The notes under the pieces are model-generated. The model ran no database searches and was not told the origin of the DNA. It saw only the letters and a list, made by a program, of their open reading frames with translations. From NCBI GenBank assembly GCA_019745275.1, contig JAIETJ010000012.1, forward strand, positions 1 through 64,000: 64,000 nt of DNA. Reading direction: 5' to 3'. Of this stretch, positions 576 to 25,104 are shown one piece after another (position 1 is the first letter of the stretch; every line of letters starts with the position of its first letter). Source of the stretch: Pseudomonadaceae bacterium (GTDB lineage Bacteria > Pseudomonadota > Gammaproteobacteria > Pseudomonadales > Pseudomonadaceae). The translations under genes were made by a program, and so were the position numbers.

Positions 576-3500
576 TTAACACAGAGCGAGCAACTCGCTG
601 AGCGGCCGAGGCCGCTCGACGGCGTAGCCTTGCACATAATCGACACCCATTTCGGCCAAATGTTGGCGAATACTCACGGTCTCGACATATTCAGCGATGG
701 TTTTACGCCCCAGGACATGGGCGATTTCGTTGATCGAGCGAACCATGGCCAGGTCGCTCGGCGAGCGTTCGATCTCTTTAACAAAACCGCCGTCAATTTT
801 GACGAAATCCACTGGCAGGCGTTTCAGGTATTCGTAGGAGGAAAACCCGGTGCCGAAATCGTCGATCGAAAAGGTGCAGCCAAATTTTTGTAAGTGACGG
901 ACAAAATCGGCGGTTTTAGTTAGGTTGGCCACGGCCGTGGTCTCGGTTAACTCAAAGCAAATTTTCTCCGGCGGCAGCGGGTATTGGACAAACAGAGCTT
1001 CGATAAAGCCGAGCAGTTTGTCGTCATTCAGACTGCTGCCGGACAAATTGATCGATACTCCACTGGAGTGCTCCCAGAATTTTGGATGCAGCGCCAAGTT
1101 GCTGAAAATGGTTTTTAGCACCCAACGATCAACCTTGGTCATGCGGTTGTAGCGCTCGGCGGCGGAGATAAAGTCCAGCAGGTTGAGGTCGTTCTGCATC
1201 ACCAGCAACACTTCGTAGTGCGGTAACTGGTCATGTTCAAGTGGCGCGGGGGCAATTTGTTGCAGGCGTAAACTCAGTTCGCCACGCTCGACAATCCCAT
1301 CGACCCGCCCGGCAATCGCCATTAGCCCGGTGCCCGCACCGTCGTTTTCTTCTTCGTAAATATGCACCCTATTACGTCCCGCTTCTTTGGCGGCATTGCA
1401 GGCCATTTGCAGGTCACAGAACACGTTAATCACATCATGCCGCTCACTGGTGAGCACCAGCCCCACGCTCATGGTTACCCCGTGGCTATGGCCCTGCCAG
1501 TCAAAGGCTTGGTTTTCGATGCTGGCGCGCAATTGCTCAGCCAACTCAAAGGCGTGGCCGCCGTCGGTTTTATTCAGTGCTATAGCGAAATCGGCGCCGC
1601 TAATGCGGGCAATCACTGAATTTTCGGGCATTTGCAGGTGTAACAGAGTGGCCACTTGTTTGAGATAACTGTCGCCGGCCAAGTGACCGCAGCTGGAGTT
1701 GAGCAAGCTAAACTGGTCGATATGCGCATAGATAAAAGCGTAGTTGTCGGCCCCTGCGAGTATTTGCGCAACGCTGGCTTCGAAGCTGCGGCGGTTAAAT
1801 AGCCCGGTGAGATCGTCATGGCTGCGCACGTGGGCAATGTCGCGATACAGCTTGCCGACGATGCCCTCTAAGTGGTCTTGAATTACCCCTTGAGCATCTG
1901 GGGCTGGTGCGCCGATCCAACCGTTAGCCAGGTGCTGCATCAGTTGCTGGCCAGTGAAGGTGCCGGCTTCGCGGCCTTGGCGGTCGGCTAATACATAATG
2001 CTCAGTGGCGGGATTGGCCCAAATCAATTGCAGGTGCTGGCCGGTGTCGGTCATCAGCCAGTCGCCGGTAACCAACTGTTGCACCCGCTCATGCCAGCGT
2101 TGTTGGCTCGGGTCAACGTGTGGCTGCTGTTTGCGGATGGCGAGCGGGGTGCAAGGCAGCATTTCAACGGGTAGCTCACCGTGCAGTTGGCGCTGCAGTT
2201 TTTGCAAGATTGGGGTGTGCCGATATTGCCCGGGTAGCAAACTTTCGGTGCGCCGGCGCAAGAGATCAAGCACATGGTCGACTTCATAATCGCGCTCAAT
2301 ATGGTCAGTCGCGCCGCTGGTTTCCGCCAATAGCCAAGTGTGCAGTTGGCGAATGATGTCGAAGTCATCTTGCCATTCAGTGCCGTGTTGGCCTTGGCGT
2401 AACAGTTCATGCACCAGCAATTCACGCCAGCCGGCGTCGAGCCACTCTAACAGCACTTGCGGGGCCTGCTGGCCGAATAACTGTGCCAGTTCTACGGCCA
2501 CTTGTTCGCGGGCGACGTCTAGTTTGTCGCGACCACGGTGGTACTGCATGACTCGCTCAGCATTGTTGCTATAGGCGCGCTGCTGGATGGCTAAGAGTTG
2601 TTCTAACTGCTGGTCACAGGCGCTAAACACCGTGCTGTCGCCGCGATAGTTGCTGACGATACCATCAATTAATTGCTCAACACGCTGTTCCAGTGCCGGG
2701 TTGCTGGGCTCGGAAAAGTCGCACAAGCGCATAAGTTTGTCTAAGGTCGCCCGCACCGGATGACTCGGATCGGCGAAGGCGGCGGGTTCCAGTATGGCGG
2801 CTTGGGCGACGGGGGCCATTAAGCGGCGTAACGCCGGCTTTACCCCTGTGGCGATCACCGCTTGCTGTTCTAAGTGCTCAAACAGTTCAGCGACTAACCC
2901 GGCGTCGGTGTATTGGCGTGGCGAGAGTTGCGCGCCAGCTTGATGCAGTTGCTGGACAAACCCTGTGGCACTCCAGCCGCGTTGTGGGGGCGTTACCGCC
3001 TGCACGCTGGCAATGGCGCGTTGTAATGTACTCAGGTCAATGTACTCGGGCTTGAGCGCAGCACCCCCACTGTTTGCATCTACTGCTCGCAGTTGTTGAA
3101 TGGCCTGATAGGGTGCGGCGGCAATGCTGTGGCTGCTCACCTCGGCGCGAGGGTGCGGGGTAACCACCGCACGCACTTCGGCCAGCGGCTCGATGTGCAT
3201 TTGCTTAAACAATGCGTCGAGTTGATTAAAGTAAGGCAGTAAGGTGCTGCCCAGCACACTGGCCGCGCTGTAAAAAACCTCGCGCACCGCCGCCGGTTGC
3301 AGCCGTAAGTGCAGGCGTGCTTGCAGGGTACGAACCAAAAACTCGAGTGACAGCGGATTCTCGAGGTCTTTGCTGACGTGATTATTGATGCGGTTCAGGC
3401 GCGCGCAGTTACGCCATTCAAGCGCGACCAGAGGCTCACGTAACACACGCACCAAGCGGCGCATGTCGAGTAGCTCGTCGACTTCGGCGTCGTCCACCAA

Positions 3501-3788
3501 GTTCCAGTCTTCATTGCTGGAGGAGGGCGTCGGCGTTTGGGCGCAAGGGTTGGCTAGGCGCAGTTGAATGGTTTTTAAAGTTTCGCTAATGATCCGTTCG
3601 CGCTGGCTGGTGCACAGGCGGATGAAGTCGGTGAAGGTTTGTTCTTCGCTATTGCTGTTGGCGCGGATGCGTTGCTCTTTTAAGGCTTGGGTAGTGGCGT
3701 CGAGTAAATCGGCCAAACAGGGCGGCAAGTGCCGGCTCATGACCTGATTTAAGGCGTCTAGCAGATCAACAGCTTGCTGTGTCTTCAT
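576..3788 (-). CDS. DUF1631 family protein with C-terminal degenerate GGDEF (SGADF) and EAL (EVLLV) domains
   Basis: Long ORF; GHLAGDSYLKQVA...ARISGADF and FELTET...DDFGTGFSSYEYLKRLPVDFVKID; likely start MKTQQAVDLL (ORF track extends to 3815). Confidence 0.85.
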   Translation of the reverse strand: MKTQQAVDLLDALNQVMSRHLPPCLADLLDATTQALKEQRIRANSNSEEQTFTDFIRLCTSQRERIISETLKTIQLRLANPCAQTPTPSSSNEDWNLVDDAEVDELLDMRRLVRVLREPLVALEWRNCARLNRINNHVSKDLENPLSLEFLVRTLQARLHLRLQPAAVREVFYSAASVLGSTLLPYFNQLDALFKQMHIEPLAEVRAVVTPHPRAEVSSHSIAAAPYQAIQQLRAVDANSGGAALKPEYIDLSTLQRAIASVQAVTPPQRGWSATGFVQQLHQAGAQLSPRQYTDAGLVAELFEHLEQQAVIATGVKPALRRLMAPVAQAAILEPAAFADPSHPVRATLDKLMRLCDFSEPSNPALEQRVEQLIDGIVSNYRGDSTVFSACDQQLEQLLAIQQRAYSNNAERVMQYHRGRDKLDVAREQVAVELAQLFGQQAPQVLLEWLDAGWRELLVHELLRQGQHGTEWQDDFDIIRQLHTWLLAETSGATDHIERDYEVDHVLDLLRRRTESLLPGQYRHTPILQKLQRQLHGELPVEMLPCTPLAIRKQQPHVDPSQQRWHERVQQLVTGDWLMTDTGQHLQLIWANPATEHYVLADRQGREAGTFTGQQLMQHLANGWIGAPAPDAQGVIQDHLEGIVGKLYRDIAHVRSHDDLTGLFNRRSFEASVAQILAGADNYAFIYAHIDQFSLLNSSCGHLAGDSYLKQVATLLHLQMPENSVIARISGADFAIALNKTDGGHAFELAEQLRASIENQAFDWQGHSHGVTMSVGLVLTSERHDVINVFCDLQMACNAAKEAGRNRVHIYEEENDGAGTGLMAIAGRVDGIVERGELSLRLQQIAPAPLEHDQLPHYEVLLVMQNDLNLLDFISAAERYNRMTKVDRWVLKTIFSNLALHPKFWEHSSGVSINLSGSSLNDDKLLGFIEALFVQYPLPPEKICFELTETTAVANLTKTADFVRHLQKFGCTFSIDDFGTGFSSYEYLKRLPVDFVKIDGGFVKEIERSPSDLAMVRSINEIAHVLGRKTIAEYVETVSIRQHLAEMGVDYVQGYAVERPRPLSELLALC

Positions 3789-3981
3789 CCCTTCCCCCAA
3801 CGAGGCGCCCTCCACGGCGCACGCCCAGTAACTATAGACCAGCTACTCGAGCCTGCTCGGCGCATTCGCAGCGGGTCGCGACGGGGTCGTTGGCCTCGCG
3901 GCAAAAATACGATAGACACACAACAGCTGACGGTTGCCACAACCGTCGGCCACGGCGAAAGCCTAACTAAAGGGGTTTGGC

Positions 3982-7267: not shown

Positions 7268-7600
7268 TTAACAGAACAGCCCCAAGCACAGTTGTTGCGC
7301 CCGCAGCAGCAAGGCATAACCCAGCAGCAGTAACATCCACGCCAGTAACGGCCCGAACAACCAGCGCCAGACACGCTGGTACGGGTCGAAGCCAACGCCA
7401 TGCACGAAACCGCCGGCTACCCCAAGCATCACCAGCATCAGCAGGCTATGGCTGTAGTGACCCTGAGTATCGAGCATGGCCGCTGGGTGAATCAGCAAGA
7501 GTAAGGCCATCGGGCTGGCCAGCAGCAGTGACAGCCCCCGAGTCCAAGAGCGCTGCAGTAACGGGCGCGGCTCAGTCGTCACCGCTGCCGTCCTCGTCAA
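7268..7600 (-). CDS. ybgE: Cyd operon protein YbgE-like
   Basis: Small hydrophobic protein with HGVGFDPYQRVWRWLFGPLLAWMLL, at 3' end of cyd operon. Confidence 0.7.
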   Translation of the reverse strand: MTRTAAVTTEPRPLLQRSWTRGLSLLLASPMALLLLIHPAAMLDTQGHYSHSLLMLVMLGVAGGFVHGVGFDPYQRVWRWLFGPLLAWMLLLLGYALLLRAQQLCLGLFC

Positions 7601-7688
7601 GGTCTTGGGTGGTTTCTAGCCATAAGGCATTGATGATGCCAAAGCTACAAGCCAGCAATACGCCGAGAATCCAAGTGAAATACCACAT
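7572..7688 (-). CDS. cydX: Cytochrome bd-I oxidase small subunit CydX
   Basis: MWYFTWILGVLLACSFGIINALWLE, characteristic CydX sequence; internal start within the 7572..7814 track ORF. Confidence 0.9.
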   Translation of the reverse strand: MWYFTWILGVLLACSFGIINALWLETTQDLDEDGSGDD

Positions 7689-7740
7689 AACGGTGCCTCC
7701 TAAATAAAGTGGGCTATAGGCTGTGAGTGCCCGTTGCGAT

Positions 7741-8289
7741 TTATATCGCCGTGCGGTCCAGTCGCCAGCGCTTGAAGAGCCAGATGCAGCAAGTGCCAAT
7801 GCCCAGCCAGCCAAGCGCGGTTAGCTCTGCGGCTAAGCGGGTGTCGGCCTGCAGCCAGCCCCAGCGCGAGAGAATTTCCGTCCAGTCATGCTCGCCGCCG
7901 CCGACTAAGGGCAGCAGCTGGGCACGGGCATCGGCCATATAACGGGCAATGTTGAATAGGTTTTGCATCAGCCACACACAGCAGATGGCAAATGAGCCGG
8001 TGGCCCCCGTGCGCTTGAATTGCACGGCGGCTGCCACGGGGAAAATGAGTTGTCCGAGGGTGCCGCCATAGACCATCAGTTGCGCGGAAAACAGCCCGAC
8101 GAATGGATGACCAAACTCATGGAAAAGCAGGTTGGCACCATCCAACACGGGAAACCAACGCTGACCATGATTGCCGAACCATAATGCCAGCGCCGAAAAT
8201 AGCAGCACACCCAGCAACACCGGGGTGGTTACCGGTTGCCAAGCAGCTTGCTGGTCGTGCTTGCTAGTGTCGCCTAGGTCCATCGGCAT
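7741..8289 (-). CDS. Multi-pass membrane protein with HEFGH motif (putative M50-like metallopeptidase), inside cyd operon
   Basis: LDGANLLFHEFGHPFVGLF followed by several hydrophobic segments; same strand, between cydB and cydX. Confidence 0.65.
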   Translation of the reverse strand: MPMDLGDTSKHDQQAAWQPVTTPVLLGVLLFSALALWFGNHGQRWFPVLDGANLLFHEFGHPFVGLFSAQLMVYGGTLGQLIFPVAAAVQFKRTGATGSFAICCVWLMQNLFNIARYMADARAQLLPLVGGGEHDWTEILSRWGWLQADTRLAAELTALGWLGIGTCCIWLFKRWRLDRTAI

Positions 8290-8322
8290 GCTGGATTCTC
8301 GATAACTTTGTGCGAGGAGCTG

Positions 8323-9471
8323 TCAGTACAAGCTATGGGTGTTTTGTTCGATCTGTGCGGTGGTGACCTTGCCCCACATCTTCACGTAGCCCCACAGGGT
8401 GTAGCAGAGGATCAGTGGGATAAAGATGCCGGCCACGATCAGCATGATGCCCAGGGTTTTCTGGCTGGAGACGGCGTCCCAAATGGTCAGGCTGGAAGCT
8501 GCATCGATGCTGGACGGCATGATGAACGGAAACAAGGCAAAACCTGCGGTACACAGGGTGCCGATAATCGCCAGGCTGGAGCCGAGAAACGCCAGCCCGG
8601 CCCGTTGGCCCGAGGCGGCAGCCAGTGCCAGCAGAGCGCCGAGGATGCCGCTCAGCGGCGCCAGTTGGCTCAGTGGGTAGCGGGTGTAATTGGCCAGCCA
8701 GCCGGGGTTGCTCTGGGTCACGGTCTTGGCCAGCGGGTTAAGGGCGGCACTGGCCTCGAAGCTGGAGCTGATCACCCAACCCTGGATATTGCCCAGCCAT
8801 AGCCACAGGCCGGCGCCGCTAAAGCAGAGCAGAAACACCAGGGCAAACAGCTGCGCGGCGCGGCGACTGCGGCGCGCCACGTCGCCATCGGTGCGCATCA
8901 TTAGCCAGGTGCCGCCGTGCAGCAGCAGCATACTCAGGCTGACCAGCCCGGCCAGCAGGCCGAAAGGGCTGAGCAGTTGCCAGAAGTTACCCTGATAGCT
9001 GCTGCGCAGGGTGTTATCCAACTCAAACGGCACGCCCAGCAACAGGTTGCCGAAGGCCACACCGAACACCGGTGCCGGCACAAAACCGCCGACAAACAGC
9101 GCCCAGTCCCAGGCCAAACGCCAGCGCGGGTCGGCCACCTTGCTGCGGTAGTCAAAACCCACCGGGCGGGTGAACAGGGCAAACAGCACCAGCAGCATGG
9201 CCCAGTAGAACCCCGAGAAGGCCGTGGCATACACCAGCGGCCAGGCGGCAAACAGCCCGGCGCCGGCGGTGACCAGCCAGACCTGATTACCCTCCCAGTG
9301 CGGCGCTATGGTGTTGATAACCACCCGCCGTTCGCTGTCGGTCTTGCCGACAAAGGGCATCAGTGCGGCGGCGCCCAGATCAAAACCATCGGTCAGGGCA
9401 AAGCCAATCAACAAGACGCCGACCAGCACCCACCAAATCAGCTTGAGGCTTTCGTAATCCAACATGGTCAT
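8323..9471 (-). CDS. cydB: Cytochrome bd ubiquinol oxidase subunit II
   Basis: DYESLKLIWWVLVGVLLIGFALTDGFDLGAAAL N-terminus typical of CydB. Confidence 0.96.
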   Translation of the reverse strand: MTMLDYESLKLIWWVLVGVLLIGFALTDGFDLGAAALMPFVGKTDSERRVVINTIAPHWEGNQVWLVTAGAGLFAAWPLVYATAFSGFYWAMLLVLFALFTRPVGFDYRSKVADPRWRLAWDWALFVGGFVPAPVFGVAFGNLLLGVPFELDNTLRSSYQGNFWQLLSPFGLLAGLVSLSMLLLHGGTWLMMRTDGDVARRSRRAAQLFALVFLLCFSGAGLWLWLGNIQGWVISSSFEASAALNPLAKTVTQSNPGWLANYTRYPLSQLAPLSGILGALLALAAASGQRAGLAFLGSSLAIIGTLCTAGFALFPFIMPSSIDAASSLTIWDAVSSQKTLGIMLIVAGIFIPLILCYTLWGYVKMWGKVTTAQIEQNTHSLY

Positions 9472-9475
9472 CTCC

Positions 9476-11032
9476 TCAGGCGGCGATTTTTTCGAAATGA
9501 TAACGACCGGTGTGCAGGCTGCTAGGGCCGAGACGGGCGAACTTGATCATCAGATACATCTCGATCACCAGCAGCACGCTGTAGAAGGCCAGCAAGGCCA
9601 GCAGTGAACCCCAGACGTCGCCGACGCTGATACTCGATGCGGACAGATGCACCGGCAGCACTTCGGCAATCGACCAAGGCTGGCGACCGTGCTCGGCCAC
9701 TATCCAGCCGGTTTGCGCGGCAATCCAGGGCAGCGGCAGGCTAACTAGCGCCCACTTGAGCAGCCAGCGTTTCTGCTCTTCGTTTTTACGCGCTGAGGCC
9801 CAGAAAGCGCAGATAAACAAGCCGAGCATCAGGAAACCCGAGGCCACCATCAGGCGGAAGCTCCAGAACACCGTTGCGACATTGGGGATGGTGTCTAGCG
9901 CGGCTTGCTTGATGTGCGCTTCAGTGGAATCGACCACCGCAGGGTTGTATTTTTTCAGCAGCAGGCCGTAGCCGAGGTCTTGCTTGTGCTGGTTGAAGGC
10001 GGCGATGTTCTCGGCGGTTTTCTCGCCGTTACGCAGTTTTTCCAGCAAGGCATAAGCCACGATGCCGTTGCGGATACGCACTTCGTGCTGCTTGATCAGA
10101 TCTTTGATGCCGGTAACTTGGGTGTCCAGCGAGCGGGTGGCGATGATGCCCATTACATAGGGGATTTTCACCGCGTAATCGGTGCGTTGTTCGGCTTGGT
10201 TGGGCAAACCGAACAGGGTGAAGGCAGCCGGGGCCGGCTCGGTTTCCCATTCCGCCTCGATGGCGGCCAGCTTGGTTTTTTGCACGTCGCCGATCTCATA
10301 GCCGGATTCATCGCCGAGGATGATTACCGACAGAATCGAGGCCATGCCGAACGCCGAAGCGATAGCAAACGAGCGGCGGGCAAAGCCCAGGTCGCGGCCT
10401 TTGAGTAGGTACCAACTGGAAATCGCCAGCACAAAAATGGCGCCAGTAACGTACCCGGCGGCCACGGTATGCACGAACTTGACCTGAGCCACTGGGTTGA
10501 ACAACAAGGCACTGAAACTGGTCAACTCCATGCGCATGGTTTCAAAATTAAACTCAGCGCCCACCGGATTTTGCATCCAGCCATTAGCGATCAGAATCCA
10601 CAGCGCCGACATATTCGAGCCAATCGCCACCAGCCAAGTAACGGCTAAGTGTTGTACCTTGCTCAGACGCTCCCAGCCGAAGAAGAACAGGCCAATAAAG
10701 GTTGATTCCAAGAAGAACGCCATCATCCCTTCGATGGCCAGCGGTGCACCGAAAATGTCGCCGACATAGTGGCTGTAGTAGGCCCAGTTGGTGCCGAACT
10801 GGAACTCCATGGTCAGCCCGGTGGTTACGCCCAAGGCAAAGTTGATGCCGAACAACTTGCCCCAGAACTTGACCATATCCTGGTAGACCTGTTTGCCGGT
10901 GATCACATACACCGACTCCATGATCGCCAGAATAAACGCAAGGCCCAGAGTCAGCGGCACGAACAAGAAGTGGTACATGGCCGTCATGGCAAACTGCAGA
11001 CGGGATAGGTCGACGACGGTTTCCGAGATCAT
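9476..11032 (-). CDS. cydA: Cytochrome bd ubiquinol oxidase subunit I, long Q-loop (E. coli-like)
   Basis: [58 protein letters not shown]; long Q-loop. Confidence 0.97.
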
Positions 11033-11253
11033 CTCGGGGTCTCCTCAAGGGCAGGCAAAGGCGGGGCAGGCGGTGTGGCAAGCAGATGGGCGGTGACCTG
11101 AGCGGTGCCTTCGAGCGGCACTGTCGGGGCGTTGAACCAGATGGCTTTGATGGCCAGCAGCAGCGTCAGCTTGATCAGCAAAATCACCGCCAGTTCGCGC
11201 ACCAGCGGAATGCGCCAAGGGGAAGCGGGGCGGTGTTGCTTAACAACAGCCAT
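11029..11253 (-). CDS. cydP: CydP-like putative cytochrome oxidase small subunit
   Basis: Short single-TM protein ([25 protein letters not shown]) directly upstream of cydA with 4-bp overlap. Confidence 0.75.
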
Positions 11254-11382: not shown

Positions 11383-12222
11383 TTATCCGTCGAAACCCAG
11401 GCGAGTACGCCAGCGGTTTTCCAAGGTTCGGGTGTCTTGTTGGGAGGGGTGAAAGCCGGGTTTGTAAAATTCGAAATACGGTCGGATTAGCCCGGTAAGG
11501 TAGCCATTGCGCAGGCCAAACAGGGTCTTGAGGCCGTATTTCCAGCTGCGCCAGTTGAACAGTTGACGGTCTTTAAACAGCAGGTCCAACTGGAACCAGG
11601 CGATGGTGCCAATAAAGGCAATCGAGATCAGCAACATGGTGCTGGTGCGCATCAAGTAGCCGCCGCCGACCGCCTGGTAGGCGTCATAGGCCACCGACTT
11701 GTGTTCGTTTTCTTCGATGGCGTGCCAGAGCCAGAGCTTGTACATGCGTGGGTCGGTCATCTGCATATTGATGTCTTCGCGCAGCAACAGTTGCTCGGCC
11801 ATGGTCGCGGTGAAGTGCTCAAAACAGCAGGTAGCTGCCAGCCGCCACTTCTTGCTGCTGACCTTGGTGAGCAGCTCCAGCGCCACCTTGACGCGCATAT
11901 CGAGTACATCTAGGTCGATACCGTGGGCCTGGGCGTAATCGTTGTAGGTCTGGTGCTCTTTGGAGTGCATGGCTTCTTGGCCGATAAAAGCACTGATGTC
12001 TTTTTGCAACTGTGGATCTTCGATCTGTTTACGCACGGCGCGCACGCTGTCGACAAAGAACTTCTCGCCATGGGGGAACAGTGACGAAAGGTTGTTCATA
12101 AAATGGGTCATAAAGGGGTCGCCACTCCACCAGTACTTGGCCGTATCGGTGAAACTAAAATCCATTCGGCGCACCGGAAATGCTGCTTTTAACAACGGTG
12201 CGGTAGTAGCCGTGCTCGACAT
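11383..12222 (-). CDS. Predicted metal-dependent hydrolase (PF10118-like)
   Basis: MDFSFTDTAKYWWSGDPFMTHFMNNLSSLFPHGEKFFVDSVR, EAMHSKEH; start chosen at MSSTATT (track ORF to 12279). Confidence 0.8.
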   Translation of the reverse strand: MSSTATTAPLLKAAFPVRRMDFSFTDTAKYWWSGDPFMTHFMNNLSSLFPHGEKFFVDSVRAVRKQIEDPQLQKDISAFIGQEAMHSKEHQTYNDYAQAHGIDLDVLDMRVKVALELLTKVSSKKWRLAATCCFEHFTATMAEQLLLREDINMQMTDPRMYKLWLWHAIEENEHKSVAYDAYQAVGGGYLMRTSTMLLISIAFIGTIAWFQLDLLFKDRQLFNWRSWKYGLKTLFGLRNGYLTGLIRPYFEFYKPGFHPSQQDTRTLENRWRTRLGFDG

Positions 12223-12456
12223 GGCGAAATCCTTATAGGTGGGGCAACTGTGCTGCGCCTCGATTATTTTGGCTGCCAAGGTGCTTTAGCAACTACTGCA
12301 GGAGCCATCACTATTGGATTTTATTCCGCGTATTACGAGGTCATATACGGCCATTTTGGCGCGTGGACGGCCAACTTTAGGTGGGCAAGTTGAGGGCTAA
12401 GAAAAAGGTGGGGCTCGGCTGCTTGCTCGGTAAAGTGGGCCTAGCAGCCAGCAACC

Positions 12457-12481
12457 ACGGGCCTGCGTTGCGCAGGCCCGT
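12457..12481 (-). terminator. GC-rich hairpin just downstream of anr, weak T-tract
   Basis: acgggcctgcg-ttg-cgcaggcccgt inverted repeat. Confidence 0.45.
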
Positions 12482-12489
12482 TAGTAGGA

Positions 12490-13224
12490 TCAGATTTCGG
12501 CGTTGCCACCGGCCAGTGCGCAGAGTTCGATTGGGTTGGTGATATCCACTTCTTTGCCTTCAGCGGCCAATAAGCCATTTTGCTGGAAACGGGTGAATAC
12601 CCGTGACACGGTTTCTACCGCCAAACCTAGGTAGTTGCCAATTTCGTTACGCGACATGGCCAGGCGAAACTGATGGGCAGAAAACCCCCGAGCGCGAAAA
12701 CGGGCCGACAAATTAACTAAAAAGGTGGCAATGCGCTCGTCGGCAGTTTTCTTTGACAGCAGCAGCATCATTTGCTGATCGTCACGAATCTCGCGGCTCA
12801 TGATGCGCATCAGTTGGCGGCGCAGTTGCGGCAGTTGCAATGCCAGTTCGTCTAAGCGCTCGAAGGGGATTTCACACACCGAGGTGGTTTCTAGGGCTTG
12901 CGCCGAAACTGGATAGCTTTCGCTGTCCATCCCGGACATGCCGACCAGTTCGCTGGGCAGGTGAAAACCGGTGATTTGCTCCTCGCCAGCATCGGTCACA
13001 CTAAAGGTTTTCAGTGCGCCGGAACGTACCGCGTACACCGAGTTGAAGGTGTCGCCTTGGCGGAACAAAAAATCACCTTTCTTGAGTGGGCGACCACGCT
13101 TGACGATCTCGTCCAGTGAGTCCATGTCTTCTGAATTCATCGCCAAGGGCAGGCACAACGAGGCAAGGCTGCAGTCTTTGCAATGAGCCTGGGGTAGAGC
13201 GCGAGCCTTGATGATCTCTGACAT
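12490..13224 (-). CDS. anr: Anr/Fnr oxygen-responsive Crp-family regulator
   Basis: N-terminal Cys cluster [44 protein letters not shown]; adjacent to hemN. Confidence 0.95.
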
Positions 13225-13367
13225 GGTTACATTCCTTAAGGGCAATACCGTTAAGGGTAACGCAGGTGCTCAAGCGCGGCTAGCTGAGCGTGAGTTGAGC
13301 GGCTGCTCAGGTTTGCCTGTGGTGGCTAGCGAGAGCAGTTGGCGCAGTGTTGCAGTCGCTCTGCGGG

Positions 13368-14756
13368 TTAGCTAACCCGCGACAGTCTCGGGCTGTTGGC
13401 TGCGCTTAAGTAGCTATCAAACAACATGCAAACGGCACGCGCCAGTAAGCGTCCGGCGGGACGGATGGTGATGCTGTGCGGGTTAAGTTCAATCAGGCCA
13501 TCTTTAGCCATTTGCTGCAGTTGCGGCCATATGGCGGCGAAGTAGCCGGCAAAATCGATATTGAATGTGCCTTCGATATGGGTGAAATCTAGGCGGAACT
13601 CACAAATCAATTGCTGAATAACGGCTCGCCGAATACGGTCATCGCCATTGCACTGCAGGCCTTTCCAAGTGGCCAGTTGGTTGTTGTCTAAACTTTGCTG
13701 ATAAAGGGCGATATCAGTGTTGTTTTGGCAGTACAGATCACCTATCTGACTGATTGAGGACGCGCCCAAGCCGATCAAGTCGCAATGCCCGTGGGTGGTG
13801 TAGCCCTGAAAGTTGCGCTGCAAGGTGCCGTCTTCTTGGGCGCTGGCCAGTTCATCGTCGGGCAGGGCAAAGTGGTCCATGCCGATATAGCGGTAACCGG
13901 CGTTGCTCAGTTGTTGAATGCTGTTGTGCAGAATGGCCAGTTTGTCGGCAGGGCTGGGCAGATCGTCCGGGTTGATTCGGCGCTGATGAGCAAAGCGCTC
14001 CGGCAGGTGCGCGTAATTAAATACCGAGAGTCGGTCGGGCTGCAGGGCGATGATGGTCTCTAGGGTTCGGGCGAAACTTTCCGGTGTCTGTTTGGGCAGG
14101 CCGTAGATTAAATCGATGTTGATTGAACGAAATTGCAGGGTGCGTGCCGCGTCAACAATAGCGCGGGTTTGATCGAGGCTTTGTAGGCGATTGACGGCGC
14201 GCTGGACGTCCGGGTCGAGGTCTTGAACGCCTAAACTTACCCGGTTAAAACCCAGCTCGCGGAGCAGCCCCATGGTTGCCCAGTCGGCTTCGCGGGGGTC
14301 GATTTCGATGCTGTAGTCACCGGAGTCATCGTCCAACAAATTAAACGTACTGCGCAGCTTTGCCATCAGCCGACGCAGTTCGGTGTGACTCAAAAAAGTC
14401 GGAGTGCCGCCACCTAAATGCAGTTGTTCAACGCTTTGCTTACGGTCGAGATGGCAGCTGACCAACTCGATTTCTTTTTCTAAACGTTCGAGGTAAGGCA
14501 GCGCCCGGCCACGGTCTTTAGTAATGATTTTGTTGCAGGCGCAGTAGTAGCAAATATTGGCGCAAAAAGGCACGTGCACATACACCGAGAGTGGCCGCTG
14601 GGCTTTGCGGCTTTCGCGCAATGCGTGCAGCAACTCAAATGAGCCAACCCCGTCATGCAGTTGTACGGCGGTTGGATAGGAGGTGTAGCGTGGGCCGGCT
14701 TGATCGTAACGACGGATCAGGTCGGTGTCCCAGAGAGTGGTGTCGAGCATGCGCAC
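13368..14756 (-). CDS. hemN: Oxygen-independent coproporphyrinogen III oxidase
   Basis: YIHVPFCxxxCYYCxC-type radical SAM motif (YVHVPFCANICYYCACNKI), LGGGTPTFL. Confidence 0.96.
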   Translation of the reverse strand: MRMLDTTLWDTDLIRRYDQAGPRYTSYPTAVQLHDGVGSFELLHALRESRKAQRPLSVYVHVPFCANICYYCACNKIITKDRGRALPYLERLEKEIELVSCHLDRKQSVEQLHLGGGTPTFLSHTELRRLMAKLRSTFNLLDDDSGDYSIEIDPREADWATMGLLRELGFNRVSLGVQDLDPDVQRAVNRLQSLDQTRAIVDAARTLQFRSINIDLIYGLPKQTPESFARTLETIIALQPDRLSVFNYAHLPERFAHQRRINPDDLPSPADKLAILHNSIQQLSNAGYRYIGMDHFALPDDELASAQEDGTLQRNFQGYTTHGHCDLIGLGASSISQIGDLYCQNNTDIALYQQSLDNNQLATWKGLQCNGDDRIRRAVIQQLICEFRLDFTHIEGTFNIDFAGYFAAIWPQLQQMAKDGLIELNPHSITIRPAGRLLARAVCMLFDSYLSAANSPRLSRVS

Positions 14757-14825
14757 GGTCCGTTTTTGTTTGGCGTGAAATCAGCCAACATGGACGGAGT
14801 GTAAGCAGCTTGGCCGATGGACAGT

Positions 14826-14839
14826 TTGACCTGTATCAA
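14826..14839. promoter_or_regulatory. Anr/Fnr box TTGACCTGTATCAA upstream of hemN
   Basis: 9/10 match to TTGATN4ATCAA, about 70 bp upstream of the hemN start. Confidence 0.75.
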
Positions 14840-14844
14840 CCGAA

Positions 14845-15549
14845 CTAGTGATGCATGCTCGGGCTGGCGTGGCCCATCAGCCAGGCTTGGTGTGGGCCGG
14901 GCAGAGTCCATAGACCAAAGACAATGACCAGCAGGCCGCCGGCCATGCGCACCGAGCGTTGCCGCAGCAGTTGGTTCAGACGCTGGGCAGCCAAACCGCT
15001 GGCGATCAAGATCGGCAAAGTACCAAGGCCAAAGGCGAACATCAGTAATGCGCTGTCGATTGCACTGCCTTGGCTGGCCGCCCATAACAGCGTGCTATAC
15101 ACCAAACCGCATGGCAGCCAGCCCCACAGCGCCCCGAGCAATAGGGCGCGCGGCAAACTGGTGACCGGCAGTAAACGGCTGGCCAGCGGTTGAATATGCC
15201 GCCACAGGCCGCGCCCGAGAGCTTCGATGCGTGTTAACCCGCTCCACCAGCCAGCCAGATACAGGCCCATGCAAATCAGCAGCAGGCCGGCGACTATGCG
15301 CAGCAGCATGGCGGCCGGGCTATTGGCCAGCGCCCAGCCACCCAGCCCGAGCAGTAAACCGGCGCAGGTATAACTGAAAATGCGTCCAAGATTGTAGGCC
15401 AGCAGCAACTGCAAACGACGACCCCGTTGCTCTACAGGAATGGCCATGGTTAAAGCGCCCATAAGCCCACCGCACATGCCTAAGCAGTGACCGCCACCGA
15501 GTAAACCGAGCACCACGGCGGAGAACAATAGCGGCAGCAGTTCAAGCAT
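14845..15549 (-). CDS. Sulfite exporter TauE/SafE family protein (COG2836-like)
   Basis: GGGHCLGMCGGLMGAL motif; multi-TM; downstream of ccoS. Confidence 0.9.
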   Translation of the reverse strand: MLELLPLLFSAVVLGLLGGGHCLGMCGGLMGALTMAIPVEQRGRRLQLLLAYNLGRIFSYTCAGLLLGLGGWALANSPAAMLLRIVAGLLLICMGLYLAGWWSGLTRIEALGRGLWRHIQPLASRLLPVTSLPRALLLGALWGWLPCGLVYSTLLWAASQGSAIDSALLMFAFGLGTLPILIASGLAAQRLNQLLRQRSVRMAGGLLVIVFGLWTLPGPHQAWLMGHASPSMHH

Positions 15550-15652
15550 ATAACGCGTCCTCTAGAGGCCCACCGCACATGCCTAAACAATGGCCGTCAA
15601 CGAGTAAACCGAGGACTACGGCGGAGGGTAATAGCGACAGCAGCTCAAGCAT
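15542..15652 (-). CDS. 36-aa ORF duplicating the N-terminus of the downstream SafE-like protein
   Basis: MLELLSLLPSAVVLGLLVDGHCLGMCGGPLEDALYA; ATGCTTGA overlaps at both ends with ccoS stop and safE start. Confidence 0.6.
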   Translation of the reverse strand: MLELLSLLPSAVVLGLLVDGHCLGMCGGPLEDALYA

Positions 15653-15854
15653 GGGGCGGGTCCTGCGGTTTGCTGGGCTGTTGGGCTTCTTGTACGCCGG
15701 CGCGGTGACCGGGGTCGTCATCATCAAACAAAATGCTGTGGGCGGGGCCTTCCATGTCGTCGTACTGACCGCTGTCTACGGCCCAAAACAACAGGCGAAT
15801 GGCGAGGGCGACAATCACTATGGCGATCGGGATCATGACATACAGGGCGTCCAT
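15645..15854 (-). CDS. ccoS: cbb3-type cytochrome oxidase assembly protein CcoS
   Basis: MDALYVMIPIAIVIVALAIRLLFWAVDSGQYDDMEGPAHSILFDDD; overlaps ccoI end. Confidence 0.95.
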   Translation of the reverse strand: MDALYVMIPIAIVIVALAIRLLFWAVDSGQYDDMEGPAHSILFDDDDPGHRAGVQEAQQPSKPQDPPHA

Positions 15855-18283
15855 CACAACTCCGAAAGGGGGGTAAGCGCTGGGCTTGCGCGGGTCAGGC
15901 GTAAGGCGTTGAGGACTACCAGTAATGAACTGAGTGACATCCCCAGTGCAGCCCAGAGCGGCGTTACCCAACCGAAGGCGGCAAATGGCAGAATTAAGCC
16001 ATTGTACAAGCAAGCCCAGAGCAGATTCTCGCGGATAATCCGGCGCGTGCGTTTGGCCAGGGCGAAGGCGTCAATCAGGCTGGTCAAACGGTTGGATAAC
16101 AGCACCGCGTCGGCACTGGTTTTGGCCAGGTCGGTGGCCGAACCCATGGCGATGCTGATGTCAGCAGCGGCCAGCACCGGCACATCGTTAACACCATCGC
16201 CGAGCATCAGTACTCGCCGGCCTTGCGCGTGTAATTGCTGCAGTACCGCGAGTTTGTCGGCAGGAGTTAAGCCGCCGCGAGCGTCGCTAATGCCCAGTTC
16301 AGCGGCCACTTGGGCAACCATCGGCGAGCTGTCGCCAGACAATAAAAGGGTCTGCCAGCCTCGGGCGCGGCAGGCGTCGAGCAAGGCGGGCGCATCGCTG
16401 CGTAAACGGTCATCGAGCACCAGCCACGCCAATGGCTCTTGCTCGTCGCCCAGCAAGAGCCATTGGCCTTGTTCACCGACAATTGCTGGTGCGGCATAGT
16501 CACTTAATGCGGCAACAAAAGCTGGCTGGCCGATACGCAGGCGCCGGCCATTAACCCAGCCTTCTAAACCTCGTCCTGGCTCGCTGATAACCTGCTCGGC
16601 GCTCAGGCTTGATTGGCCAAAAGCCCGGGCTATCGGATGCTCCGAGCGGTTTTCTAAGGCCGCCGCCAATTCTAAGCACTGCACGCTGTCGAGTGCGCCC
16701 AAGGTTTGCACGTGGCCTAAGGTCAGGCGGCCTTCGGTCAGCGTGCCGGTTTTGTCGAAAATTACCGTGTCGATTTGATTTAAACCGTCGAGCACGTGCC
16801 CGCGGGTCAGCAGCAAACCCAGCTTGTGCAGGCTGCCGGTCGCCGCGGTGAGGGCAGTTGGGGTGGCCAGTGATAGGGCGCAGGGGCAGGTGGCCACCAA
16901 CAAGGCCAGCACAATCCAAAAAGCTCGCTGCGGATCAAGTTGCCACCAGAGCAAACCGACTACGGCAGCGGTGCTCAGCACTATCAGTAAAAACCATTGT
17001 GCGACCCTATCGGCCAGTTGCGCCAACCGGGGTTTTTCGGCTTGTGCGCGCTCCAGTAAGCGGACAATGGCCGACAGCCGAGTGGCGTTGCCCAAAGCTT
17101 GGACTTGCACGGTTAGCGGGCCTTCGACATTTAAGGTGCCGGCGCTGACGTGCTCGCCGATGCCGCGCGGTAGCGGTAGGTATTCGCCGGTCAGCAGTGA
17201 CTCATCGATACTCGACTGGCCGCTGATAATCAGCCCGTCGGCCGCTAACATGCAGCCGGGTGGCACCAAAATATGCTCCCCAAGTTGCAGTTCGCTGATT
17301 AGTATCCGCGTGCTTTGCCCCTGCGCATCGAGCCGCAAACAGGACGCCGGCAACAAATTAACCAGTTGGGCGGTGGCCTCTGCCGTGCGCTCGCGGGCGC
17401 GGCGCTCCAAGTAACGGCCCGTCAGCAGGAACAAGGCAAACATGCCCACCGCATCAAAATACAACTCGCCATGTTGGAATACGGTGGACCAGATGCCGGC
17501 CACGTAGGCACCGCCAATTGCCAGTGAGACTGAAACGTCCATGGTTAGGTGGCGGGTGCGTAGATCGCGCAGTGCGCCTTTGAAGAAGTCACCGCAGCAG
17601 TAAAAAACAATCGGCGTGGTTAAAAACAAACTGACCCAGCGCAGGATGATATCCAGTTCGCGGCTCAGATCGAGATTGAACTCTGGCCAGGTGGCCATGC
17701 TGGCCATCATCACTTGCATCCACAACATGCCGGCTACGCCCAGTTGGCGCAGAGCACGGCGGTTCTCACTGGCCAGTTGGGCGCTGGCACGATCGGGCTG
17801 ATACGGGTGAGCGGCATAACCGATGTTGCGCAGGGTTTTTAGTAGCTGGCTGAGCGGCAGCTGTTCGGCGTTCCAACTCAGGTATAGGCGATGGTTGGAC
17901 AGGTTTAGATTGGCGGCACTGACGGCACTGAGACTGCGCAGGTGCTTCTCGATCAGCCAGCCACAGGCGGCGCAACTGATGCCCTCAATCAGCAAGCAGG
18001 TACTGCTCTGTTCGCCTTGATGCTGGACAAAGTCCTGCTGCACGTCACTGCGATCGTACAAGGCCAGTTCATCGGCCAGCGCCTGCGGGAAGGCGTCTGG
18101 GTTGGCGGAGGGTTCGCTGCGGTGCTGGTAGTAACTCTCTAAACCGCCGCTAACGATGGCCTCGGCTACCGCAGTGCAACCCGGGCAGCACATCGCGCGC
18201 ATCTCGCCAAGTACGCGCGCTTGAAAGCGCTCACCGGTGAGAACCGGCAAGCCGCAGTGGTAGCAGGGGGTCGGATAGGACAT
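15854..18283 (-). CDS. ccoI: Heavy-metal P-type ATPase CcoI/FixI
   Basis: CYHCGLP, ATCPCALSLATP, DKTGTLTEG, GDGVNDVPVLAAADIS. Confidence 0.96.
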   Translation of the reverse strand: MSYPTPCYHCGLPVLTGERFQARVLGEMRAMCCPGCTAVAEAIVSGGLESYYQHRSEPSANPDAFPQALADELALYDRSDVQQDFVQHQGEQSSTCLLIEGISCAACGWLIEKHLRSLSAVSAANLNLSNHRLYLSWNAEQLPLSQLLKTLRNIGYAAHPYQPDRASAQLASENRRALRQLGVAGMLWMQVMMASMATWPEFNLDLSRELDIILRWVSLFLTTPIVFYCCGDFFKGALRDLRTRHLTMDVSVSLAIGGAYVAGIWSTVFQHGELYFDAVGMFALFLLTGRYLERRARERTAEATAQLVNLLPASCLRLDAQGQSTRILISELQLGEHILVPPGCMLAADGLIISGQSSIDESLLTGEYLPLPRGIGEHVSAGTLNVEGPLTVQVQALGNATRLSAIVRLLERAQAEKPRLAQLADRVAQWFLLIVLSTAAVVGLLWWQLDPQRAFWIVLALLVATCPCALSLATPTALTAATGSLHKLGLLLTRGHVLDGLNQIDTVIFDKTGTLTEGRLTLGHVQTLGALDSVQCLELAAALENRSEHPIARAFGQSSLSAEQVISEPGRGLEGWVNGRRLRIGQPAFVAALSDYAAPAIVGEQGQWLLLGDEQEPLAWLVLDDRLRSDAPALLDACRARGWQTLLLSGDSSPMVAQVAAELGISDARGGLTPADKLAVLQQLHAQGRRVLMLGDGVNDVPVLAAADISIAMGSATDLAKTSADAVLLSNRLTSLIDAFALAKRTRRIIRENLLWACLYNGLILPFAAFGWVTPLWAALGMSLSSLLVVLNALRLTRASPALTPLSEL

Positions 18284-18294
18284 CTACAGAGCGA

Positions 18295-18795
18295 TCATTG
18301 ACCCAGTTGCACAGATGAGCCTGTCACTAGGGTTTCTTCTTCAAACAGGCGCCAATCTTTACCGCCTTCTTGGCCGATCAGTTCGACAAAACGGCGGCCT
18401 TGCACGCTGTCTTGCATATTGCCGCGATACAGATTGCCTTCGGCAGGCTGCATTACGATGCGTCGATCTTTTTCTGGCTGGGTCGGCGAGATCAGGCTCA
18501 AGCTCAATTGCGCTGGACGACTGTTGCCGGTCAGCGTTAGTTCGGCGATTCCCGACTCGTCATCAAAGCTGACGTTGGCAGTCAGTTGTAATTGTTTCGC
18601 GAGTTTTTCGCGGTCGAGTGCGGTGTTGATACCTTTGCCGGCATCGTAGTAGTTGTCGACCACCAAGCTGTCACCCTTGAGGATCGACACGGTTAGCAAT
18701 GACAGGCCCAAGACCACTGACAAGGCTAATAAAGAAATCATAAACCAAGGCCAAAACTGCTTGTACCAAGGTGTAACAGGGATTTGCGCGTGCAT
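18295..18795 (-). CDS. ccoH: FixH/CcoH family protein
   Basis: WYKQFWPWFMISLLALSVVLGLSLLTVSI...GDSLVVDNYYDAGKGIN. Confidence 0.93.
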   Translation of the reverse strand: MHAQIPVTPWYKQFWPWFMISLLALSVVLGLSLLTVSILKGDSLVVDNYYDAGKGINTALDREKLAKQLQLTANVSFDDESGIAELTLTGNSRPAQLSLSLISPTQPEKDRRIVMQPAEGNLYRGNMQDSVQGRRFVELIGQEGGKDWRLFEEETLVTGSSVQLGQ

Positions 18796-18823
18796 ATAGA
18801 TCTCTAATTAAAAGTGCGTAGAT

Positions 18824-20239
18824 TTAACGAACGCTGGGGCCGATAAAACGGCTATCTGCGTCGTTTCTGATTGTTGGAGCATCTATAGCCTGTACGCTAA
18901 AGCTGATGGCGTTGGCGCTGGAGGGGAGCTTCTCCGGTTCGATAGACAGCTCTACCGGAATCGACAGCACCTCGCCGGCCACGGCCAGTACTTCGCGTTT
19001 GCCGCTATAAATCAAGCCATCAATGCCGCTGGCTTCGATGCGGTAGCTATGGTCGGCTTGGTCCTTATTCATGATTTTTATGGTGTAGACGTTTTCAATC
19101 AAGCCTTCTTGGTTCTCGCGAAACAGCAGGCGGTCTTTAATCACATCCAGTTGTACCAACGGGCGGATGCTCACGGCGTAGGCAAACATGCCCATCATCA
19201 CCACCAGCGCGACGGCATAGCCAATCAATCGCGGGCGCAACAAGTGGGTTTTTTGCCCCGACAAGTTGTGCTCAGTCGTGTAACTAATCAGCCCTTTGGG
19301 GTAGTTCATTTTTTCCATGATGCTGTCGCAGGCATCGATACACGCGGCGCAACCGATACACTCAAATTGCAAGCCGTCGCGTATGTCGATCCCGGTTGGA
19401 CACACCTGAACGCACATAGTGCAATCGATGCATTCACCTAAACCCTCTGCCTTAAAATCGGCAGTTTTCTTGCGTGGGCCGCGATGTTCGCCGCGACGCG
19501 GGTCGTAGGAGACGATTAAGGTATCTTTATCGAACATCACGCTTTGAAAGCGCGCGTACGGGCACATATAAATACACACTTGCTCACGCAGCCAGCCAGC
19601 GTTGCCATAGGTGCCAAGGGTGAACAGGCCTATCCAGAAATACGCCCAACCATCTGCGCTGCCGTTTAACAACTCAGGAATAAGATCCTTGATTGGTGCG
19701 AAGTAGCCGACAAAGGTCAGTCCGGTGGCAAGGCCGATTAGTAACCACAAGGTGTGTTTGGCGGTTTTGCGCAATAATTTGTCTCGACTCATAGGTGCTT
19801 TGTCGAGCTTGATGCGTTGGTTGCGGTCGCCTTCGGTGACCTTCTCACACCACATGTAAATCCATGTCCAAACGCTTTGTGGGCAGGTATAGCCACACCA
19901 CACGCGGCCGGCATACACGGTAATAAAAAATAGGCCAAAGGCACAGATGATCAGTAGCCAAGACAGCAGCATGAAATCTTGCGGCCAGAACGTGGCGCCA
20001 AAAATATAAAATTTGCGACCAGGTAAATCCCACCAAATGGCTTGGCGGTCGCCCCAGTCGAGCCAAACGGTGCCAAAGTACAGAAGAAATAACCACGCCC
20101 CGCCGGCCATGCGGATGTTACGGAACAGTCCGGTAAAGGCGCGTGTGTAATTGGTCGCACGACTGGCATACAGGTCAATCGAAGTTGAGCCTTTCGCCGG
20201 CGTTGGGGTGACATCTTTGAGTGGGATTTGTTGGTTCAT
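18824..20239 (-). CDS. ccoG: Cytochrome c oxidase accessory protein CcoG (ferredoxin-like)
   Basis: CIDCTMCVQVCPTGIDIRDGLQFECIGCAACIDACD; start chosen at MNQQIPLK (track ORF to 20317). Confidence 0.95.
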   Translation of the reverse strand: MNQQIPLKDVTPTPAKGSTSIDLYASRATNYTRAFTGLFRNIRMAGGAWLFLLYFGTVWLDWGDRQAIWWDLPGRKFYIFGATFWPQDFMLLSWLLIICAFGLFFITVYAGRVWCGYTCPQSVWTWIYMWCEKVTEGDRNQRIKLDKAPMSRDKLLRKTAKHTLWLLIGLATGLTFVGYFAPIKDLIPELLNGSADGWAYFWIGLFTLGTYGNAGWLREQVCIYMCPYARFQSVMFDKDTLIVSYDPRRGEHRGPRKKTADFKAEGLGECIDCTMCVQVCPTGIDIRDGLQFECIGCAACIDACDSIMEKMNYPKGLISYTTEHNLSGQKTHLLRPRLIGYAVALVVMMGMFAYAVSIRPLVQLDVIKDRLLFRENQEGLIENVYTIKIMNKDQADHSYRIEASGIDGLIYSGKREVLAVAGEVLSIPVELSIEPEKLPSSANAISFSVQAIDAPTIRNDADSRFIGPSVR

Positions 20240-20380
20240 TGCGGCATACCACGGTAGTGGATAAATGCCCCAGCTCGATGCGGTTGGGGTCGTGAGCACT
20301 GGCTCAGAAATGATCATACGCCTGCGGCAAATAGGCCGCGATGCGACCTATGGTCACTTCTGGTGCATTGCTAACCATTA

Positions 20381-20413
20381 AAGCAAAACGGCGCCAGGTT
20401 TTGCCTGACGCCG
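20381..20413 (-). terminator. Terminator after ccoNOQP copy 1
   Basis: Minus strand CGGCGTCAGG-caaaa-CCTGGCGCCG followed by TTTTGCTTT. Confidence 0.75.
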
Positions 20414-20438
20414 CTCAATACTTCAGTCCGCGAATAGC

Positions 20439-21368
20439 TTACTTCGTGGCTTTTTCTGCATGTGAAAGGCTGTACACGTATGCCGCGAGCAAATGCACCT
20501 TGTCGTCACCGAGGAAGGTTTTTTGCGCGGGCATAACGCCTTGACGACCATAACGAATGGTTTGTTGCAGTTGAGCAAAGCTGGTGCCGTAGATAAACGC
20601 GGCTGGGTTGCTCAGGTTAGGTGCGCCCATAGCAGGTGTGCCGTGACCTTGTGGGCCGTGGCACGCAACACAGTTGCCAGCAAACAGCTTTTTACCGGCT
20701 TCGATGTCCGCTTTGTTGCCCTCTGGCAATTTACGGCCAGCTATTTCAGTCAGCACATAAGCCGAGACGTTGCTTACGCCAGCATCACCCAGCACTTCAA
20801 GCCAAGCCGGCATGACCGCGTGGCGACCCGCTAGAAGGGTGGTTTTGATGGTTTCGGGCTCGCCGCCCCAGCGCCATTCAGCGTCGGTTAGGTTGGGGAA
20901 ACCATAGGCGCCCTTGGCATCGGAACCGTGACAAACCGAGCAGTTGCTGGCAAACAGGCGACCGCCCATTTTCAACGCTTGCGGGTCTTTGGCTACTTCG
21001 CTGATAGGCATGGCAGCATATTTGGCGTACAGCGGACCGTACTCCTTATCGCCTTTGTCCATCTCGCGCTCGTACTGCTTAACCGCAGTCCAGCCGCCTT
21101 CATAGCCCGGGAAAATACCCGTCCACTTACCCATGCCCGGATACAGCACGAGATAACCAACAGCAAAAATGATGGTTAGGATAAACAGCATAAACCACCA
21201 CTTCGGCAGTGGATTATCCAGCTCTTGAATGCCATCAAATGAGTGCTCGAGGGTTTCCTCGGTGGCCTCAGGGCGTTGCCCTTTACGGGTTGAAAGCACT
21301 AACCAGATCAACCCAATAATGGTACCGCTGGTCAGCAGTGTTATGTACCAACTCCAAAAAGTGGTCAT
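20439..21368 (-). CDS. ccoP: cbb3 cytochrome oxidase subunit III, copy 1
   Basis: Two c-heme sites CSVCH and CVACH. Confidence 0.96.
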
Positions 21369-21550
21369 TCGCTCTTACTCCTGGAAGCTTGTTCTTCGCG
21401 TTTTTCAGCTTCGGTTTGGTCGGCAAAGGGCAAGTTAGCCGCTTCATCGAAGCTGGCTTTGCGTCTGCTGCTATAGGCCCAGAGGCAGACGCACGTGAAT
21501 GCGACTACCACCAGTACGGTTCCAATACCCCGGAGGGTGCCGATATCCAT
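21365..21550 (-). CDS. ccoQ: cbb3 oxidase subunit CcoQ, copy 1
   Basis: [44 protein letters not shown]. Confidence 0.93.
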
Positions 21551-21555
21551 ATGCC

Positions 21556-22170
21556 TTACCGCTTGTTCTTAATGATGGTGCCAAGAGACTGCAGGTAAGC
21601 CACTAGCGCTTCCATTTCAGTTTTGCCTTTAACGGCGTCTTTAGCTCCAGCGATGTCGGCGTCGGTGTATGGCACGCCTAAGGTACGCATAGCCTGCAAC
21701 TTGGTGGCGGTGTTTTCGCCATCTAGCTTGTGCTCAACCAGCCATGGATATGCCGGCATGATCGACTCAGGCACCACGTTGCGTGGGTTGTACAGGTGGG
21801 CACGATGCCAGTCGTCTGAGTAGCGACCGCCAACCCGAGCCAGGTCTGGCCCGGTACGCTTGGAGCCCCAAAGGAATGGGTGATCCCAAACGCTTTCACC
21901 AGCGACCGAGTAGTGACCGTAGCGCTCGGTTTCTGCGCGAAACGGGCGAATCATCTGCGAGTGGCAACCGACGCAGCCTTCACGGATGAAAATGTCGCGG
22001 CCTTCATGCTGAAGGGCGGTGCGTGGCACCATGCCTTCAACTGGGGTGTTGGTGACGTCTTGGAAGAACAGCGGGACGATTTGTACCAAGCCGCCGATGC
22101 TGACGGCCAACACCATTAATACGGCCATCAGGCCGATGTTTTTCTCAATGATCTCGTGCTTGCTACTCAT
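21556..22170 (-). CDS. ccoO: cbb3 oxidase subunit II, copy 1
   Basis: [13 protein letters not shown] heme c site. Confidence 0.97.
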
Positions 22171-23612
22171 CAGTGGCTCGCCTCTACAGTGAACTGGGCT
22201 GCGGCTTCACATTCAGCCGGTTTAGCCGCACGCACGGTGCGCCAGGTGTTGTAAGCCATAAACAGCATGCCGGAGAAGAAGATCGCGCCGCCTAGTGCAC
22301 GGACGATGTAGCCAGCATGGCTCGCCTCTACGGACTCAACAAAGGAGTAAGTGAGAGTGCCGTCTTCGTTGACTGCGCGCCACATCAGGCCCTGGGTAAT
22401 ACCGTTCACCCAAAGTGCCGCGATGTACAGCACGGTGCCGATGGTGGCTAACCAGAAATGCAGGTTGATCAGCGCAACGCTGTGCATTTGCTCGCGGCCA
22501 TAAACCTTCGGGATCAGGTGATAGAGCGCGCCGATCGAAATCATGGCTACCCAGCCCAAAGCCCCAGCGTGTACGTGACCAATGGTCCAGTCGGTGTAGT
22601 GCGACAGGGCGTTAACGGTTTTGATCGCCATCATCGGACCTTCAAAGGTCGACATGCCGTAGAACGCCAAAGACACGACCAAGAAGCGCAGGATCGGGTC
22701 GCTGCGCAGCTTATGCCAGGCGCCCGAGAGGGTCATCATGCCGTTGATCATGCCGCCCCAGCTCGGCGCCAGCAGAATCAATGACATGGCCATGCCCAAG
22801 CTTTGCGCCCAGTCCGGCAGTGCTGTGTAGTGCAGGTGGTGCGGGCCGGCCCAGATGTACACGGTGATCAGGGCCCAGAAGTGCACGATCGACAGGCGAT
22901 ATGAGTAAATCGGACGCTCTGCTTGCTTAGGTACGAAGTAGTACATCATCCCCAAGAAACCGGCAGTCAGGAAGAAACCCACTGCGTTATGGCCGTACCA
23001 CCACTGGATCATGGCATCGGTCGCACCGGCATATACCGAGTAAGACTTAAACATGCTAACCGGGATCGCCATGTTGTTGACGATGTGCAGCAGTGCCACG
23101 GTGAGTATGAAACCGCCGAAGAACCAGTTGCCCACATAAATGTGCGACATTTTGCGCTTAACGACAGTGCCAAAAAACAATATGGCATAGCTGACCCAAA
23201 CTACGGCGATCAGAATGTCGATCGGCCATTCCAGTTCGGCATACTCTTTCGATGAGGTAAGGCCCATCGGCAGGGTAATGGCAGCCAGCACAATGACCGC
23301 TTGCCAGCCCCAAAATACAAACGAGGCGAGGGTGTCGGAAATTAAGCGGGTTTGCGAGGTGCGTTGCACCACGTACAAAGATGTTGCCATCAAGGCGCAA
23401 CCACCAAAGGCGAAAATCACCGCGTTGGTGTGCAGGGGGCGGAGGCGGCCGAAGCTTGCCCAAGGTAAGTCGAAGTTAAGTTCTGGCCACACAAGCTGTG
23501 AGGCGATCAGAACACCCATACCCATACCCACGATTCCCCAAATCACCGTCATAATGGCGAATTGGCGAACCACCTTATAATTATAAGCAGTCGGACTTAT
23601 TGCTGAGCTCAT
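22170..23612 (-). CDS. ccoN: cbb3 oxidase subunit I, copy 1
   Basis: [52 protein letters not shown]. Confidence 0.97.
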
Positions 23613-23960
23613 GCGTTTTGTTCCACGGTTAATGGATTTTTCTGAGGACTAAAAATCGGCCGCAAGTATGGGCAAAGCGGTAGGTCATTGCAATGAGCAA
23701 GACCAGTAAAATCGGGCTTTACAGCCTTGCAGTATGAACTTTATAGGCTCGATTGATGTCCCTCGGTGGCGCATTCAACTCCCGAGTAACCCCGTAAAGG
23801 GCAGGGAATTGCCGCACAGTGCTGAGCATTGGCGACCTTGGTGAGCGTAGTCGATTTATGTGCAGGCAGGCGAGATGGTGCGACACTCTGTCGCATTATG
23901 GCGGGGATGAATATCCAGCTGACACTTCCTTGTGCCGTTGCTGTGGGGTTTAAACCATTA

Positions 23961-25099: not shown

Positions 25100-25104
25100 A
25101 TGCC

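Follow-up and report, generated by a model that had tools for sequence, protein, structure and literature searches.

A predicted membrane HExxH protein encoded between cydB and cydX belongs to an uncharacterised family with varied genomic contexts

What does a membrane protein with a HEFGH motif do between two genes of a bd oxidase operon? In the 64,000-nt stretch of Pseudomonadaceae DNA analysed here (the window), a minus-strand ORF with an ATG start (8289-7741) encodes a multi-pass membrane protein of 182 aa that carries HEFGH, and the forward frame of 7741-8289 has many stops. The minus-strand gene order is cydP, cydA, cydB, the HEFGH gene, cydX and ybgE, and the HEFGH gene is separated from cydB by 33 nt and from cydX by 52 nt. 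The Cyd genes were identified by NCBIfam and Pfam models (CydP, CydA, CydB, CydX, YbgE), and ORF and models agree with the original prediction of a 182-aa HEFGH membrane protein between cydB and cydX, on the same strand and with short gaps. The features of the operon are as follows:

11029-11253, minus strand: cydP (NF045611)
9476-11032, minus strand: cydA (NF011677, E 1.8e-274)
8323-9471, minus strand: cydB, 33 nt upstream of the HEFGH gene (TIGR00203, E 2.4e-148)
7741-8289, minus strand: HEFGH membrane protein gene, 182 aa (ORF; family alignment with invariant residues; AF2 helices)
7572-7688, minus strand: cydX, 38 aa, with an AGGAGG ribosome site before its start, 52 nt downstream of the HEFGH gene (TIGR02106 on an overlapping ORF)
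7268-7600, minus strand: ybgE, its start overlapping the cydX end (PF09600, E 2.5e-22)

The operon region around the HEFGH gene showed no sigma-70-like promoter, and the gene is therefore probably co-transcribed with the bd oxidase genes. Positions 11383-27170 form, on the strand that also carries the cyd operon, a low-oxygen respiration island with an FNR/Anr-type regulator (12490-13245), two cbb3 oxidase gene sets (CcoN-like genes at 22170-23612 and 25719-27170, CcoP-like genes at 20439-21368 and 23961-24902), a CcoG/FixG-like protein and a CcoI-like P-type ATPase. A predicted metal-dependent hydrolase (PF10118, 11383-12279) lies between the Anr-type regulator and cydP. A perfect FNR/Anr box, TTGATCTCGATCAA, is found at 27235-27248 near a CcoN-like gene, and the window has 43 such boxes with up to two mismatches vs about 20 expected; the one upstream of cydP is a two-mismatch match only and was given no weight. 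Elsewhere in the window, positions 576-3815 encode a DUF1631-GGDEF-EAL protein of 1079 aa.

The HEFGH protein had no significant match in Pfam, NCBIfam or PDB sequences, and a 67-member alignment of its relatives searched against the same libraries gave nothing beyond a zinc ribbon and scattered weak matches. Relatives were present in 26 of the 369 genomes of a class sample and in 6/400 same-genus genomes, and a profile search of a phylum sample found them in 10 of 389. A scan of GTDB contigs with six peptide patterns of the window protein, biased toward closer relatives, gave 41 relative loci, many of them in Gallionella, Rhodocyclales, Burkholderiales, Chitinilyticum and Comamonas. The loci retrieved are a sample in which MAG contigs may be misassigned; assignments to Nitrospirota, Myxococcota and Bdellovibrionota were taken from MAG titles alone. 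The relatives fall into two branches: short forms, to which the window protein belongs, and long forms that carry a CPxCG...CxxCG zinc ribbon at the N-terminus. On the tree, the window protein and that of Pseudomonadales bacterium RIFCSPLOWO2_12_59_9 (locus L059) are a fully supported pair. A plasmid origin of the gene was rejected, with no plasmid match obtained, none of the candidate stretches on viral contigs codes for a relative, and weak PADLOC matches to defence families, in 1-3 of the 67 members only, were taken as chance. No description of the family was found in the literature, for most papers in titles and abstracts. Judged from its sequences, the HEFGH protein is a member of a coherent, uncharacterised family of small, predicted integral-membrane HExxH proteins, with members in Pseudomonas-like bacteria, Gallionella, Rhodocyclales, Comamonas and other groups.

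Fifteen columns of the alignment are invariant in all 67 sequences (L54, H57, E58, G60, H61, G75, G76, Q80, P84, W106, Y117, D120, H134, D135 and W136). HEFGH is a full HExxH (H57, E58, H61), and F59 is replaced by Ala in 57 of the 67 rows, so that HEAGH is the family norm. HExxH, D120 and HDW dominate the invariant set, a pattern like that of an enzyme, and candidate ligands and general base (H57, E58, H61, D120, H134 and D135), as expected of a metal-dependent hydrolase in general, occur in every member. The proposed HExGH zinc-peptidase-like motif thus passed the conservation check, with H57, E58, G60 and H61 found in 67/67. A third ligand had also been suggested within NIARYMADAR; this segment does hold the invariant D120, while the HDW that follows (134-136) is equally invariant and had gone unmentioned. 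The predicted site maps to the window as follows:

8107-8121, minus strand: HEFGH (residues 57-61), the HExxH predicted to bind metal and act in catalysis (67/67 for H, E, G and H)
7930-7932, minus strand: Asp120, at the C-terminus of helix 97-119, a candidate for the third metal ligand (67/67; AF2 model)
7882-7890, minus strand: His134-Asp135-Trp136 (HDW), in a predicted periplasmic loop (invariant, 67/67)

Comparison of the window gene with that of L059 gave dN 0.158 and dS 1.36 (NG86), a ratio of about 0.11-0.12, and the gene is under purifying selection. A chance motif is ruled out by the invariance of H, E, G and H in the 67 homologues together with dN/dS of about 0.11. Between the same two genomes the neighbours have dS of 0.41 (cydA), 0.30 (cydB) and 0.75 (ybgE), and amino acid identity is about 77-78% for the HEFGH protein vs 96-97% for CydA/B. 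The higher synonymous divergence fits either a separate history of the gene (recombination or separate transfer) or constrained codon use in cydAB. Along the two operons (window 7268-9471, L059 894-3162), the jump in dS from ~0.3 in cydB to ~1.4 in the HEFGH gene, with 0.75 in ybgE, likewise suggests a recombination boundary or uneven codon constraint.

AF2 modelled the window protein, a short form, with pLDDT 93.2 and pTM 0.87, and a long member with pLDDT 92.2 and pTM 0.78. The window protein has predicted helices at 22-40, 47-65, 72-94, 97-119, 135-142 and 146-180; helix 47-65 holds HEFGH, and D120 comes just after helix 97-119. A PDB fold search with both models at E <= 0.001, run without an S2P model as positive control, returned no match. 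Averaged over members, the loop charges are strongly positive at the N-terminus of the long forms, positive in loop 92-98 and at the C-terminus, and negative in the HExxH segment and loop 119-145. By the positive-inside rule, these charges put both termini in the cytoplasm and the conserved site toward the periplasm, a predicted topology in which the N-in call is drawn from the long forms, the N-terminus of the short forms being slightly negative. Helix 47-65 would be re-entrant or interfacial in this topology, although it may also span the membrane.

The reading that we prefer, with middling confidence, is that the family consists of membrane hydrolases of general function that depend on a metal and are probably proteases, and not of oxidase factors. 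It is favoured because a Glu-containing HExxH in a helix and invariant Asp and His residues lie at the same predicted membrane face. H57 and H61 together with D120 (or H134/D135) would bind a metal, most likely zinc, and E58 would activate water, in an active site on the periplasmic side of the inner membrane; metal binding and hydrolysis are both predicted from conserved residues. The substrate may be a membrane-embedded or membrane-exposed chain that arises in general membrane upkeep, not specifically a bd oxidase subunit. In this Pseudomonas-like lineage the gene would have been inserted between cydB and cydX and would be expressed along with the oxidase. If this chemistry is right, the proteins constitute a membrane metallohydrolase family that is not described in any library searched.

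HExxH alone can occur in non-proteases, and a non-protease membrane metalloenzyme (e.g., a lipid or small-molecule hydrolase), or a metal sensor that relays its signal via the cytoplasmic zinc ribbon of the long forms, is the alternative that survives best, although we consider it somewhat unlikely. It draws on the invariant HDW and D120, which differ from the LDG signature of M50, on the CPxCG..CxxCG ribbon of the long relatives and on the lack of a match to any protease family searched. Against it, HExxH with its adjacent Glu is the classical water-activation motif of zinc hydrolases, and the short forms, the window protein included, have no ribbon.

The remaining alternatives tie the family to redox complexes, and the neighbourhoods of the relatives bear on them. 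Cyd genes, annotated with the window's Cyd proteins, were found around the relative in 1 of 66 loci, namely L059. In L059, cydB and the HEFGH gene are separated by a stretch with the GC-rich inverted repeat CCGCGCCGCCGCAACGGCGCGG (~2050-2085), which is a possible attenuator and is absent at the corresponding place in the window. In all 29 other same-genus cydB-cydX-ybgE loci retrieved (the window's own left out), the gap between cydB and cydX is 11-74 nt with no gene in it. A YbgE search found 58 of the 400 same-genus genomes positive, although its weakest matches may not be true YbgE; six genomes of this sample have the HEFGH gene, and both occur together in one vs 0.87 expected (Fisher p = 1). 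Co-occurrence with ybgE in the class sample gave Fisher p = 0.63; at each rank both searches apparently drew on one set of genomes. Among recurrent contexts aroC is the most frequent, adjacent or near in 15 loci and a few kb away in some of them. The order hypF-hypC-hypD followed by a relative, in operons for hydrogenase maturation, occurs in nine loci, with hypE directly after it in six (L064, L080, L083, L084, L086 and L092), and several hyp-linked relatives overlap the hypE start by 4 nt; hyp linkage is clustered on the tree (three changes). Other neighbours include UvrA, Fic, HPP-CBS, PnrA-like, DUF6159, C92 peptidase and GGDEF proteins, and most neighbours other than aroC, hyp and cyd are non-recurrent and give no functional lead. 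Contexts this varied (cyd 2, aroC 15, hyp 9 and many others) favour a general role, and we concluded that the place in the cyd operon is a recruitment, specific to this lineage, from a general enzyme family.

In some lineages the role may be more specific, as the repeated occurrence of relatives downstream of hypD hints. A factor that matures several membrane-linked redox enzymes (bd oxidase, [NiFe] hydrogenase) or controls their quality, and that was recruited beside each of them, would account for the hyp loci, those that overlap hypE included, and for the low-oxygen setting of the window with its two cbb3 operons and FNR/Anr-type regulator. We nevertheless think it improbable: aroC and the miscellaneous neighbours, from uvrA to GGDEF genes, fall outside such a role, and inheritance within a lineage explains much of the tree-clustered hyp membership. 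The original prediction of a bd oxidase maturation or quality-control protein fared worst: a dedicated factor, i.e., a protease or chaperone acting in CydAB maturation or in setting the CydX level, is plausible in kind, since E. coli CydX can be cut by the S2P intramembrane protease RseP in vitro and when tagged (PMC10470546) and the RseP of this genome also has HEFGH, and it would suit a same-strand gene with short gaps and no internal promoter found, but we regard it as very improbable given the 29 operons without the gene, the chance-level overlap with ybgE, the 65 loci with no cyd gene nearby and a divergence much faster than that of cydA/B. The neighbourhood survey proposed along with that role found a cyd link in the window and L059 only, two closely related genomes, and a general cyd factor was rejected on the basis of the gene-free operons, the lack of co-occurrence and the non-cyd contexts of the relatives. 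The preferred reading of a general membrane hydrolase can be extended, tentatively and with the extension being possible rather than probable, to a new group of small periplasm-facing membrane metalloproteases with a fold absent from the PDB and one zinc-ribbon branch, which would have entered operons (cyd, hyp, aroC) repeatedly and, in certain lineages, would help to assemble or turn over redox complexes. The locus is a warning against reading operon position as function, in that a textbook oxidase operon may hold a lineage-specific recruit.

HExxH is also carried by M48/M56 and other membrane peptidases (HtpX, Ste24, BlaR1). The HEFGH protein differs from M48/M56 in that it has no sequence or fold match to them, and the alignment contains no invariant downstream Glu of the gluzincin type. 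The M50 site-2 proteases (RseP, PF02163) resemble it more specifically: the RseP of this genome reads IHEFGHFWVARR, with HEFGH in a membrane helix; HEFGH 57-61 of the new protein lies in predicted helix 47-65, which may span the membrane or only enter it in part; and a later Asp (D120) is a candidate third ligand. The M50 clan, in which the original prediction had suggested searching by HMM and structure, was not recovered. None of the 67 members matched an M50 Pfam or NCBIfam model at E 0.1, with the control RseP matching PF02163 at 2e-76, and hhalign of the family to the genome's own RseP aligned 11 columns around HEFGH with a probability under 5. In place of an LDG-type motif after HExxH, the family has an invariant YxxDA with D120, and its own LDG precedes HExxH (residues 49-51) and is not invariant. 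The S2P core fold was not found either, two confident models having no PDB match in a search that lacked an S2P positive-control model. With sequence, profile and fold tests negative and three of four tested defining features absent, M50 membership is not supported. S2Ps typically act nearer the cytoplasm, whereas the predicted site here faces the periplasm; the HEFGH protein also has no PDZ domain, and only 63 residues separate H57 from D120. In its position just after cydB the protein is like CydX/CydY/CydZ and YbgE. CydX/Y/Z are small and accompany cydAB in many taxa (PMC4325964), whereas the HEFGH protein is multi-pass, carries HExxH and is linked to cyd in two genomes only.
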